Assembly: GCF_000336775.1 (NCBI RefSeq)
Contig: NZ_AOLJ01000011.1
Span: 533,084 to 597,083, forward strand
Length of the DNA: 64,000 nucleotides
Direction of reading: 5' to 3'
Source: Haloferax gibbonsii ATCC 33959
GTDB lineage: Archaea > Halobacteriota > Halobacteria > Halobacteriales > Haloferacaceae
Shown here: one piece after another, positions 19,740-39,336 of the stretch
Position numbering within the stretch: the stretch's first letter is position 1
How the letters are laid out: every line of letters starts with the position of its first letter
Position numbers and translations under genes: made by a program
The notes under the pieces: generated by a model
What the model saw: only the letters and a program-made list of their open reading frames with translations
Told to the model about the DNA's origin: nothing
Database searches by the model: none

Positions 19740-19879
19740 ACCGACGCCCTCGGAGCGAGACGGTAAGAGAGTCCGCCATGAGCGGAGTGAAAGTGTCGGG
19801 TTCGGCGGAAGTGAAGGCGTGTCAGCGAGCCAAGCTCGACGACCGAGTCACGTTGGGTGGCGTCGCGAAAATGGGAGCG

Positions 19880-19925
19880 GACTCGCGGGGTCCCCACGAA
19901 CGAAGCGAGTGGGGGCAAGCGAGTC
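19880..19925. repeat. Palindrome 1 beside tRNA-Ala
   Basis: Arms GACTCGCGGGGTCCCCAC (19880-19897) and GTGGGGGCAAGCGAGTC (19909-19925) pair with a few mismatches around the spacer GAACGAAGCGA. The left arm begins with 11 bases identical to the complement of the tRNA-Ala 3' end. Confidence 0.7.
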
Positions 19926-19959
19926 TATTGACTGACGGAACGAAGTGACGGAAGGAAAT

Positions 19960-20028
19960 GGACTCGCGGGGATATTGAACTCACTCGCAACGCTCCGCGT
20001 TGCTCGCTGCTCAAATCCCCGCTCGAAC
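19960..20028. repeat. Palindrome 2 beside tRNA-Ala
   Basis: Outer arms GCGGGGAT (19966-19973) and ATCCCCGC (20015-20022); inner arms GCAACGC and GCGTTGC around TCC (19987-20003). The left arm (from 19959) copies about 20 bases of the tRNA-Ala 3' end with one extra base, including the T-loop, and the right arm is an inverted, more decayed copy (CTCAAATCCCCGC). Confidence 0.75.
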
Positions 20029-20041
20029 AGGCACGATTACA

Positions 20042-20104
20042 CTCGACACCGACGTGACTCGCAGGGCTCCTGACGGAGCCACTGCTCGAAGGCGTGGTGT
20101 CGAG
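20042..20104. repeat. Palindrome 3 beside tRNA-Ala
   Basis: Outer arms CTCGACACC (20042-20050) and GGTGTCGAG (20096-20104) are perfect; the inner part GCAGGGCTCC/GGAGCCACTGC also pairs. It starts ten bases downstream of the tRNA 3' end on the transcribed strand, so it would be in any 3' trailer. Confidence 0.75.
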
Positions 20105-20113
20105 AGAAAGTAG

Positions 20114-20185
20114 TGGACTCGCGGGGATTTGAACCCCGGGCCTCTTCCTTGCGAAGGAAGCGATCTGCCACTGATCTACGAGCCC
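20114..20185 (-). tRNA. tRNA-Ala (anticodon CGC)
   Basis: A 72-nt cloverleaf on the minus strand: acceptor GGGCTCG paired with CGAGTCC (one G-T pair), D arm GATC/GATC, anticodon stem CTTCC/GGAAG with loop TTCGCAA, so anticodon CGC reading GCG, and T arm CGGGG-TTCAAAT-CCCCG. Discriminator A; CCA is not encoded. No intron. It lies between the palindrome region and the EF-1A/S10 operon and has its own promoter. Confidence 0.95.
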
Positions 20186-37750: not shown

Positions 37751-37908
37751 GTATGGTGCTGCTGGGTGCTGGAAGAAGCTGTCACGGGATACTACGGCTG
37801 ATTTTGGGACGCACCCATTTAACACTTGCCAACTGCGTCGAAGAAAGGCGACGCTATCGGAGGTCACGCACCGGAGATGCGCGAATCGTCACGTGTTGGC
37901 ATGGGGTA

Positions 37909-37921
37909 TCGCGATATAAAT
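37909..37921. promoter_or_regulatory. TATA-like element between rpoH and tRNA-Asp
   Basis: CGCGATATAAATG reads as a TATA box rightwards and, less well, leftwards. It could be a second promoter for the tRNA-Asp pair about 105 nt away or a distal promoter of the polymerase operon. Confidence 0.4.
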
Positions 37922-37974
37922 GTCTTCGGGGCAAGAATCGCGGTACCGCGGGCCAAGGGCAACCCAGATGGTAA

Positions 37975-37990
37975 GTCTTATCTATAAACC
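37975..37990 (+). promoter_or_regulatory. tRNA-Asp promoter
   Basis: CTTATCTATAAAC lies about 33 nt before the first tRNA-Asp base and fits an archaeal TATA element. It probably drives both tRNA-Asp genes; no separate TATA is seen in the 30-base gap between them. Confidence 0.65.
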
Positions 37991-38017
37991 TCGGCTACGG
38001 ATGAGTGCAGACGGAGG

Positions 38018-38090
38018 GCCCGGGTGGTGTAGTGGCCCATCATACGACCCTGTCACGGTCGTGACGCGGGTTCAAATCCCGCCTCGGGCG
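38018..38090 (+). tRNA. tRNA-Asp (anticodon GTC), copy 1
   Basis: A 73-nt cloverleaf: acceptor GCCCGGG/CTCGGGC, anticodon stem CGACC/GGTCG with loop CTGTCAC giving GTC, T arm GCGGG-TTCAAAT-CCCGC, discriminator G. CCA is not encoded and there is no intron. It is identical to the second copy 103 bp further on. Confidence 0.96.
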
Positions 38091-38120
38091 CTCTCCGTAC
38101 CGCAAAACTCACTTCAGTAA

Positions 38121-38193
38121 GCCCGGGTGGTGTAGTGGCCCATCATACGACCCTGTCACGGTCGTGACGCGGGTTCAAATCCCGCCTCGGGCG
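38121..38193 (+). tRNA. tRNA-Asp (anticodon GTC), copy 2
   Basis: The same 73-nt sequence as copy 1, separated from it by 30 unrelated bases. The two are very likely co-transcribed. The 3' side continues into a series of palindromes containing partial copies of this tRNA. Confidence 0.96.
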
Positions 38194-38204
38194 TACTTTT
38201 CGAT

Positions 38205-38251
38205 GAATTACTCTCTGAGCGCCGAGTCTCGTCTCGGCGCGAGCGTAATTC
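38205..38251. repeat. Palindrome A after tRNA-Asp
   Basis: Outer arms GAATTAC (38205-38211) and GTAATTC (38245-38251), inner arms GCGCCGAG and CTCGGCGC around TCTCGT. It begins 12 bases past the second tRNA and could form a 3'-trailer hairpin. Confidence 0.75.
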
Positions 38252-38267
38252 TCGTGAATACCCCAAA

Positions 38268-38335
38268 GGGATTGAACCCGACGACGAGCGAGTGTAGCGA
38301 GTGACGTCGGCACGGTTCAAATCCCGCCTCGGGCG
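38268..38335. repeat. Palindrome B with exact tRNA-Asp 3' end copy
   Basis: GGGATTGAACC (38268-38278) and GGTTCAAATCCC (38314-38325) are the arms, with CGACG/CGTCG inside. The right arm is the start of a 22-base exact direct copy of the T-arm and acceptor end of tRNA-Asp (38314-38335). Confidence 0.8.
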
Positions 38336-38342
38336 CTTCTCT

Positions 38343-38396
38343 GATTTCAACTCCTCCAGCGAGGCGTCTCGTCGCCGAGCGACAGTGAGTGAAATC
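38343..38396. repeat. Palindrome C
   Basis: Outer arms GATTTCA (38343-38349) and TGAAATC (38390-38396), with GCGAGGCG/CGCCGAGCG inside. It carries no tRNA piece. Confidence 0.65.
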
Positions 38397-38413
38397 TGTA
38401 AGCGACGACAGGC

Positions 38414-38474
38414 GGGATTTGAACCAAGGAGCGAAGCGAGCGGTAGCGAGCGGAGCGACTGAGGTTCAAATCCC
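38414..38474. repeat. Palindrome D with inverted T-arm pair
   Basis: GGGATTTGAACC (38414-38425) and GGTTCAAATCCC (38463-38474) are perfect 12-base inverted arms, both equal to the tRNA T-arm, around a spacer made of GAGCGAAGCGAGC-type repeats. Confidence 0.8.
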
Positions 38475-38477
38475 CGA

Positions 38478-38503
38478 CCCTTACCGGAAGAGCGCCGTAA
38501 GGG
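38478..38503. repeat. Small hairpin before the SDR gene
   Basis: CCCTTAC (38478-38484) pairs with GTAAGGG (38497-38503) around twelve bases. It lies upstream of the SDR gene promoter. Confidence 0.5.
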
Positions 38504-38544
38504 GGCGTCAACACCGCCATATTCTCGCGTGACGTCGGTACAGT

Positions 38545-39336
38545 ATGACGAGTGGGACAACCGACGGGCGGGTCGTCGTGGTGACCGGCGCGAACGAGGG
38601 AATCGGTTACCACACGCTAGTGGCGCTCCTGAAGAAGGGCTACCGAGTCGCCGGGCTCGACGTCAACGTGGACGCCCTTCGCCCGCTTCAGGAGGCGTAT
38701 CCCGACCGCGTCCGCGTCTACGAGTGCGACGTGACGAACGACGACGACGTGGAGGCGGCGGTGGCTGGACTCCTGGACGAGTGGGGACACATCGACATCC
38801 TCCTCAACAACGCGGCGATATTCAACTTCGGCTTGTTCGACGACCGAACGCTCGACGACACGCGCGAGGAGTTCGAGGTGAACTACTTCGGCTACCTTCG
38901 GATGATACGGGCCGTCCTGCCGCACATGCGGGCCCGAAACTCGGGGCACATCCACAACGTGAGTTCCGGCGTCGGACTCGTCGGCACGCCGGGACTATCG
39001 GGGTACGCGTCGACGAAGGGCGCAATCGAGGCGTTCACCCGTTCGCTCCGGATGGAACTGCAACGCGAGAACGTCTCCTGTTCGGTGATGCACCCGCCTT
39101 ACACCGCCACCCGGTCGGCGGCCCGACTCGGACTCCCGTCGTCGATGATGAGTGACCCCGAAGACGTGGGGCGGAAGTTCGCCGACAAAATCGAGTCGAC
39201 CCGTCTCGTCGTCACCGCCGACCTGACGACCAGAATCGGGCTGTATCTCGCCCGCCGCTTCCCGTTCATCGTCAGGCGGGGGACCAAACGGTTCCTCGAC
39301 GAGCGCGAGGCGGCCGTCGAATCGGGCGGGCGGTGA
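38545..39336 (+). CDS. Short-chain dehydrogenase/reductase
   Basis: A 263-residue classical SDR oxidoreductase. The cofactor motif TGANEGIG (residues 14-21), the structural NNAA motif, a serine in NVSSG and the catalytic YASTK are all present. The aspartate after the second strand (LDVNVD) hints at NAD(H) preference. The substrate is unknown; the family includes acyl and steroid or retinol reductases. A TATA-like CATATTCTC (38518-38526) lies 27 nt before ATG 38545. It stands alone, just beyond the palindromes. Confidence 0.88.
   Translation: MTSGTTDGRVVVVTGANEGIGYHTLVALLKKGYRVAGLDVNVDALRPLQEAYPDRVRVYECDVTNDDDVEAAVAGLLDEWGHIDILLNNAAIFNFGLFDDRTLDDTREEFEVNYFGYLRMIRAVLPHMRARNSGHIHNVSSGVGLVGTPGLSGYASTKGAIEAFTRSLRMELQRENVSCSVMHPPYTATRSAARLGLPSSMMSDPEDVGRKFADKIESTRLVVTADLTTRIGLYLARRFPFIVRRGTKRFLDEREAAVESGGR

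Follow-up and report, generated by a model that had tools for sequence, protein, structure and literature searches.

Hairpin cassettes carrying copies of the host tRNA 3' end behind tRNA genes of Haloferax gibbonsii and other haloarchaea

In a 64,000-nucleotide stretch of the genome of Haloferax gibbonsii ATCC 33959 (the window), a tRNA-Ala and a tRNA-Asp locus are followed by non-coding DNA of one shared plan, which raises the question of what kind of element carries pieces of two different tRNAs in the same arrangement. The initial annotation had described, at both loci, a GCGAGCGAAGCGAGC-like spacer flanked by inverted T-arm pieces, and all three copies of this arrangement were confirmed, while GCGAGCGAAGCGAGC itself, read there as a spacer repeat, turned out to be the apical part of a structured hairpin and not a simple repeat. 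The features of the three copies, with the evidence for each, are the following:

38018..38091, plus strand: tRNA-Asp(GTC) gene 1 (ARAGORN, Rfam RF00005)
38121..38193, plus strand: tRNA-Asp(GTC) gene 2, anchor of the array (ARAGORN, Rfam RF00005)
38194..38267, plus strand: first hairpin (H1) of Asp cassette 1, 'gamma' module, found in other Haloferax too (RNA fold, z -5.7; orthologous loci with the same module)
38268..38278, plus strand: left arm of Asp cassette 1, inverted T-loop with a one-base deletion (sequence)
38279..38313, plus strand: hairpin tip of Asp cassette 1 (sequence, fold)
38314..38335, plus strand: right arm of Asp cassette 1, direct copy of tRNA-Asp from the T-loop to base 73 (direct repeat D2)
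38336..38409, plus strand: H1 of Asp cassette 2, 'alpha' module, hairpin not significant in this copy, z -1.1 (orthologous loci, fold)
38410..38425, plus strand: left arm of Asp cassette 2, inverted tRNA-Asp T-arm region, 16/16 (inverted repeats I1-I3)
38426..38462, plus strand: hairpin tip of Asp cassette 2, of a type that recurs in relatives (fold, z -6.7)
38463..38474, plus strand: right arm of Asp cassette 2, T-loop copy, the acceptor part beyond differing from tRNA-Asp (repeat D3, sequence)
20113..20185, minus strand: tRNA-Ala(CGC) gene, anchor (ARAGORN)
20023..20112, minus strand: H1 hairpin of the Ala cassette (fold, z -4.4)
20009..20022, minus strand: left (inverted) arm of the Ala cassette (sequence, fold)
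19981..20008, minus strand: hairpin tip of the Ala cassette, of a type also found at other tRNAs in the genus (DNA matches, contexts)
19959..19980, minus strand: right arm of the Ala cassette, tRNA-Ala from the T-loop to base 73 with one inserted base (sequence)
19879..19891, minus strand: tRNA-Ala acceptor end copied once more, apparently closing another short-hairpin unit (direct repeat D1, 70% to reference; similar units in L019 and L130)

The arms of Asp copy 2 at 38414-38425 (GGGATTTGAACC) and 38463-38474 (GGTTCAAATCCC) are complementary at 12/12 positions, and its full left arm (38410-38425) is complementary at 16/16 positions to the T-arm region of both tRNA-Asp genes. The right arm extends past the T-arm into the acceptor 3' end of the tRNA itself, so that in Asp copy 1 (38314-38335) it equals the tRNA-Asp 3' end; this part is decayed in Asp copy 2. 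As the Ala copy is on the minus strand, all three units are downstream of their own tRNA and on the tRNA strand. Folded as RNA and compared with shuffles, the tip hairpins of Asp copy 2 and the Ala copy are stable (z -6.7 and -6.0) and that of Asp copy 1 is weak (z -2.2, with 8/200 shuffles equally good), while H1, between the tRNA and the left arm, folds as a hairpin in two of the three copies (z -5.7 and -4.4, against -1.1 in Asp copy 2). An Rfam scan of window positions 37900-38600 detected no RNA family at cut-off other than the tRNAs. Shorter units that end in an acceptor copy and are without T-loop arms were also seen (window positions 19879-19958, L019, L130 and L171-L174); in these, a hairpin directly precedes ...ACTCCCGCC or ...GGACCCCGCG.

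The common order of a unit is the tRNA 3' end, H1, a left arm that is an inverted copy of tRNA bases ~53-64, the hairpin tip, and a direct copy of bases ~54-73, units being delimited by these 3'-end copies from base ~54 to 73. Such cassettes are non-coding, roughly 80-150 bp long, and lie behind haloarchaeal tRNA genes on the tRNA strand. An exact-arm pattern (GGATTTGAACC, 20-50 nt, GGTTCAAATCC) was detected in 13/39 genomes, the window's genome included, and the reversed pattern used as control gave 0 matches. Scanning a genome collection with the same pattern yielded at least 120 stretches, 111 of those listed being haloarchaeal by title (two 'uncultured archaeon' records included). Among the 115 hairpins in these 111 stretches, 102 lie downstream of an ARAGORN tRNA on the same strand (median distance 67 nt, 27 isoacceptors) and none upstream; 9 have no nearby tRNA call and 4 overlap a doubtful one. 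In a phylum sample the exact pattern was present in 9/24 genomes of the organism's own order and in 0/124 others. The tips were also searched alone, so that arms were not selected for, and class A was found in 61/117 genomes (130 matches) and class B in 35/117 (60 matches), with 0 matches in the reversed controls; thirty loci were examined per class. By these patterns the distribution is patchy among related genomes, and many loci are related, so these counts are not independent. Chance or simple repeats as the origin are ruled out by the reversed controls of the pattern and tip scans. A dispersed CGARCGNAGYGAG repeat was rejected as the carrier, with 37 matches in the window's genome against 26 for the reversed control (hardly a repeat) and 1 match within the window against 0.28 expected, as was a halovirus origin, for which a scan of viral contigs gave 6 stretches, none with a haloarchaeal tip. 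A Woesearchaeota genome bin (L038) has a cassette-like unit behind tRNA-Ser(CGA), made up of an inverted T-loop, an AT-rich hairpin and a repeat of the tRNA end, which may represent the same plan outside haloarchaea.

Regarding the relation between arms and host gene, the right arm matches its own tRNA at 356/390 positions in class B and 314/338 in class A (maxima of 300 permutations 256 and 229, respectively), and the left arm at 288/360 in class B (permuted maximum 268) and 242/312 in class A (219). The class B test used the 30 of 32 hits that have a tRNA call (L144 and L159 left out) and the class A test 26 of 34 hits (L204, L205, L211, L217, L219, L220, L222 and L225 left out). The 32 class-B hits come from 30 loci; the tRNA call lies close upstream in 30 of them and an acceptor end was recognized by eye in the other two. 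Left arms behind tRNAs with a TTCGAAT loop are GGATTCGAACC-like, and tRNA-His (TTCGATT), tRNA-Asn (TTCGAGC) and tRNA-Tyr each have their own kind of arm. Position by position, in the 59 cassettes that passed minimum matches, host specificity of the right arm runs from the first informative base, 57, largely to 73 (0.56 against 0.46 at +1, past base 73), and that of the left arm spans 57-64 and rises slightly again at 68-69; bases 53-56 are identical in nearly all tRNAs, and over bases 46-52 neither arm is much host-specific (the difference peaks at 0.15, for base 52 of the right arm). The outer stem over tRNA bases ~57-64 is host-specific, and the tip is common to different tRNAs. Reverse transcription from mature tRNA is thought unlikely as the source of the copies, because these stop at base 73 and no CCA follows in the rows examined.

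The same plan was found at the ends of two protein genes, one encoding a nitrite/sulphite reductase (L204; repeat of 15/18 bases, through the stop codon) and one an enzyme of the enolase superfamily (L219; repeat of 14/14, to the first base of the stop codon). L220, L222 and L225 seem to be one orthologous non-tRNA locus with a class-A-like tip hairpin at about position 1500, without clear T-arm arms or direct repeat, which counts against a strict tRNA rule.

Within the window's genome, which has 56 matches to RF00005, prevalence was determined for the 52 distinct tRNA genes that have 200 nt or more of downstream sequence, tandem tRNAs being masked. A copy of the gene's own 3' end (at least 16/20 bases) is present within 400 nt downstream of 26/52, and 16/52 also have a left arm of at least 9/12; a cross-isotype control using the downstream DNA of another isotype gave 1.5% for the 3'-end copy and 1.3% with left arm. 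The test misses gapped copies, which in the window are taken to include the Ala copy and, in Asp copy 1, the left arm. With half of the tested tRNA genes concerned, the cassettes are a sizeable feature of this genome.

Regarding the structure of the hairpins, a gapless alignment of 24 class-A hairpins of one length has paired bases in 94.8% of cells against 79.6% in shuffled alignments (0/500 as high) and two-sided change in 15/25 pairs (shuffled mean 10.1, 0/500), including 8/11 arm pairs, while the number of further pair types has no excess over shuffles (29 against 27.5, 159/500). This set was selected with AGTCGC, AGCG, ACC and GTCT fixed, so those columns are invariant by choice, and the T-T mismatch and the CAG/AC loop, likewise fixed by the search pattern, prove nothing. 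Among the class-A matches a central tandem G-A occurs in 106/130 and a GNA triloop in 90/130; both are unusually stable in single-stranded DNA, and RNA can form them too. In the arm-selected hairpins, the apex CGA-N-C, GNA, G-N-GAG is present in 65/115, where shuffled tips lead one to expect 0, and AGTCGC..GTCT in 42/115. The outer three tip pairs vary freely yet pair, being Watson-Crick in 232/261 cases against 98 shuffled (87 hairpins).

The same tips recur at different tRNAs. From 312 tRNA calls, 221 distinct units were collected at 38 tRNA species, a number that gives no prevalence, as the loci were mostly chosen for holding cassettes and include a few non-haloarchaeal ones. The left-arm rule of 8/12 used in collecting them is passed by shuffled DNA in 17% of trials; 205/221 units reach the stricter rule of 9/12 (chance 2.5%), and 96/221 tips fall in no tip class. 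Among these units, 98 pairs of different isotype have a tip identity of at least 92% with a median H1 identity of 0.55, and in 105 pairs H1 is at least 80% identical, 15 of these carrying unrelated tips. Two tRNA-Tyr loci of the window's genome have different tips, while H1 (with a single base change), the left arm and the greater part of the acceptor copy are the same, and in another genome (L281) an 83-nt acceptor-to-acceptor unit is exactly duplicated in tandem. The tip of the Ala cassette (class E) was found by DNA similarity at many places in the genus, among the matches listed. All 20 selected regions fetched from pattern or similarity matches contain a tRNA gene, and 13 of the 14 class-E tips in them are, by eye, flanked by arms of the local tRNA; the left arm of the second copy in L279 is interrupted by an unread base. 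At the orthologous tRNA-Asp loci of 15 Haloferax genomes, one of which is cut by a contig end and one of which is without hairpin, three H1 modules and several tips are arrayed in shuffled order. An apparent strain-level empty site at Halorubrum tRNA-Ser (L053) was rejected, since L053 also holds a cassette, and neither a free circle nor a strain-level empty site was found in the genomes and viral contigs examined.

Thus, of what had been proposed for these loci at the outset, the existence of a real type of non-coding element, built to a common plan, is borne out by the recurrence and the zero matches of the reversed controls, capture of T-arm sequence is seen in arms that match the local tRNA in both orientations, and the suspected mobility looks genuine, one tip being found at many tRNAs together with tip swaps and tandem units. 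The contrary outcome named there, an absence of further copies and of a conserved spacer, was examined and the results went the other way. The proposed T-arm mimic RNA does not stand as worded, the two T-arm pieces pairing with each other as one long stem and not as separate T-arms, and such an RNA may be one option among several.

The interpretation preferred here, whose chance of being correct is close to even but falls short of it, is that the units are integrative cassettes, non-autonomous and placed at the 3' ends of genes, chiefly tRNA genes, in which the folded stem mimics an attachment site and tips are exchanged at the T-loop by a postulated enzyme. The direct repeat would be the attachment site, at which a tyrosine recombinase of haloarchaea targeting tRNA 3' ends would cross over, and the copied 3' end would keep the tRNA whole after integration. 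One extruded strand would form a hairpin in which an 11-12 bp duplex has the sequence of the tRNA half-site. The integron integrase uses the folded attC strand as a duplex site, and the recombinase could treat the folded cassette strand in the same way. Recombination between two such capped stems would swap their tips within the T-loop, the breakpoint falling at one and the same base pair in either arm, and crossover together with selection or palindrome correction would keep the arms matched to the host. Supporting boundaries are the end of the repeat at base 73 at tRNAs and its extension to the stop codon at the two protein genes; boundaries of this kind are what integration at the 3' ends of genes usually entails. 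For haloarchaeal proviruses, the portions consulted of two reports give a 13-bp att site equal to the tRNA 3' end (PMC7911831, PMC8371274). Simple insertion of a circle would place the donor's acceptor strand in the recipient tRNA, and a transfer from one tRNA to another would therefore require an additional step. The largest gap in the model is the arrival of a tip at a fresh tRNA with no wrong acceptor left behind, a difficulty that tip-for-tip exchange between existing cassettes escapes and first colonization does not.

The exchange of tips could also arise passively, by template switching in which nascent strands jump at 7-11 nt of T-loop microhomology and copy tips, with quasi-palindrome correction perfecting the arms and no dedicated recombinase. 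This process accommodates the junctions, which in both arms fall within the T-loop, the part in which tRNAs resemble one another most, and the tandem unit duplications, which look like ordinary slippage. Template switching would, however, be expected outside haloarchaea also, yet 0/124 sampled genomes from the remainder of the phylum have the exact pattern against 9/24 of the order, and the specific apex in 65/115 arm-selected hairpins (0 expected) suggests selection for recognition; this explanation appears rather unlikely.

Mismatches give a hint as to which strand folds. On the tRNA strand, G-T exceeds A-C in class-A helices (14 against 2), in the outer helix (6 against 3) and in the arms (53 against 19, or 32 against 19 without one recurrent position), the arm count being made on 58 distinct arm pairs with at least 8/13 paired, a selection that favours paired arms. 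This excess is suggestive of the tRNA-sense strand as the folding strand, a reading from sequence weakened by the relatedness of the loci. It fits an RNA as well and in that respect counts against the integrative interpretation. The cassettes might be structured trailers of tRNA transcripts, acting as small RNAs or as processing or termination devices similar to the RtT repeats of E. coli, with arm pairing selected in an RNA hairpin. Besides the G-T excess on the sense strand, the position of 102/115 haloarchaeal hairpins downstream on the tRNA strand and 0 upstream, the strong covariation and the small-RNA annotation of RtT, which has the same plan, are in keeping with an RNA element. Such an element leaves the host-copying inverted arm, the tip swaps between tRNAs and the two protein-gene units unexplained, the patchy distribution among related genomes speaks against it, and single-stranded DNA is equally compatible with sense-strand folding; a purely RNA-level role is given a low probability.

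Regarding a possible enzyme for the integrative cassettes, 19 cassette loci have no adjacent tRNA call (L003, L023, L031, L055, L069, L078, L114, L126, L130, L144, L159, L204, L205, L211, L217, L219, L220, L222 and L225), and a tyrosine integrase gene was detected in six of these (L003, L069, L114, L130, L144 and L211) by tblastn with the two integrases from L003 and L069 as queries. No relatives were found by this search in any other locus then examined; among the 13 loci of the set without a match, three run into a contig edge, and the majority of the loci span just 3-8 kb. The Pfam Phage_integrase domain scores above the cut-off in L069 and L114, at the cut-off in L211 and 0.5 bits below it in L003, where the cut-off for the SAM-like domain is passed. 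In L003, L069, L114, L130 and L211 the 3' end of the integrase gene points towards the cassette with an acceptor copy in between, while in L144 the 5' end does. It is likely that the integrase elements insert in the tRNA proper and displace older cassettes downstream. The integrases near the six loci seem to be part of larger elements that have no such hairpin at their attR, the hairpin being absent from the integrase-side end in 5/5 loci where that end is readable, and we infer that they are of the SNJ2 type. They lie outside the cassette bounds, and the cassettes do not encode an integrase of their own, tips of 27-74 nt and H1 of 19-150 nt (221 units) being too short for a gene.

The att sites of SNJ2-type integrases, found in pleolipoviruses and other elements, resemble the cassettes in having a direct repeat equal to the tRNA 3' end, which in the cassettes ends at base 73. 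They differ in that the att core is about 13 bp, the elements are kilobases long and encode an integrase, and the attR seen here has no tip hairpin. The hairpin of the SNJ2 rolling-circle origin was considered and set aside, having a different place and partner in the part of the source that describes it (PMC13107129). Scars of ordinary proviruses or integrated plasmids, that is, attL-attR remnants left by internal deletion and without a role of their own, could account for the 3' boundary, which is that of provirus att sites, and for the integrases present in the same hotspots. Given the hairpin-free integrase-side ends of the larger elements in the five readable loci, the tRNA call close upstream of 30/32 class-B hits with an acceptor end at the other two, and the covariation of the tips, such an origin is quite improbable. 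Decayed tRNA duplications or chance palindromes, although the right arm is a genuine tRNA piece, can be dismissed almost entirely in view of the recurrence, the zero reversed-control matches and the two-sided covariation.

The closest known system is the RtT repeat behind E. coli tyrT. Like the cassettes, RtT (tyrT/tyrV, RF00391) is a tandem array following a tRNA, in which every unit terminates with the copied 3' end of that tRNA (AATCCTTCCCCCACCACCA), and an upstream inverted copy (GGGGAAGGAT) pairs with the end copy as a hairpin; the cassettes, held against this plan, are likewise tandem units with a tRNA 3'-end copy and an inverted partner. RtT differs in its 178-bp units and in an inverted copy that lies on the T-stem/acceptor side and not the T-loop. 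At the E. coli K-12 locus three units lie behind tyrV, each with a 16/20 match to the tRNA end, GGGGAAGGAT is by eye 10/10 complementary to the copied end and pairs with it in the predicted fold (z -2.95), and the region carries the annotations small RNA RttR and Rfam RF00391. An RtT match is present in 4687/5426 E. coli genomes. Of six further places with RtT, five are immediately preceded by a pair of tRNA-Tyr genes and one is without a tRNA call, and no second kind of anchor was seen among the six. RF00391 gave no match to the Asp cassettes (window 37900-38600) at Rfam E values up to 1, where the positive control, L361, scored 132.9-137.5 bits. The RtT units of L361, between 1211 and 1737, contain CGAGCGCCAGCGAG or CGAGCGTCAGCGAG, near the apical motif of the haloarchaeal tips. 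The PLSDB records NZ_OL790696.1 and CP125156.1 (4.8 and 5.4 Mb), filed as plasmids, are chromosome-like in size.

Other systems share parts of the plan. Integrons and the cassettes both consist of small units arrayed behind a fixed anchor, and in both the unit terminates in an imperfect hairpin (attC in integrons) with a stem base that corresponds to the anchor site. This is a resemblance at the level of the plan only, and the cassettes differ in that no coding cassettes were seen and the arms follow the host gene; the main text of a report on archaeal integrons has no mention of Halobacter-, halophil- or tRNA (PMC9668308). The PATEs, SMRs and MITEs of Haloquadratum are, in the portions of the source that describe them, short, non-coding, palindromic and haloarchaeal like the cassettes, and are either IS605-related or of unknown mobiliser, but those portions describe no target-specific arms or tRNA 3'-end repeats (PMC3119063). 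Fixed terminal inverted repeats shared with a transposon, by which MITEs are defined, were not found in the cassettes, whose inverted arms vary with the host tRNA. Sites at tRNA-Met in Bifidobacterium (L028, L029 and L137) and in viral contigs (L198-L203) also have inverted and direct copies of the tRNA 3' part, and differ in being bacterial, with a short spacer and longer arms that include the anticodon stem. By eye these copies adjoin an apparent integrase reading frame; they amount to a bacterial attachment site that is palindromic and copies its target.

No description of hairpin cassettes that follow haloarchaeal tRNAs and match their host was found in the open-licence literature searched, and no annotation of the feature was seen in the records examined. 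That they constitute a new class of mobile DNA, in which tips are capped duplex stems that pass from gene to gene through strand exchange on folded single strands, adopting the arms of the gene where they land, is a possible but doubtful further step. If true, one tip family could colonize many tRNA genes and some protein-gene ends without harm. The cassettes bear on the E. coli RtT repeats, which have the same plan, and on how elements change their tRNA targets and how repeats build up at tRNA 3' ends, and they offer a test bed for site-specific recombinases acting on folded DNA in archaea.
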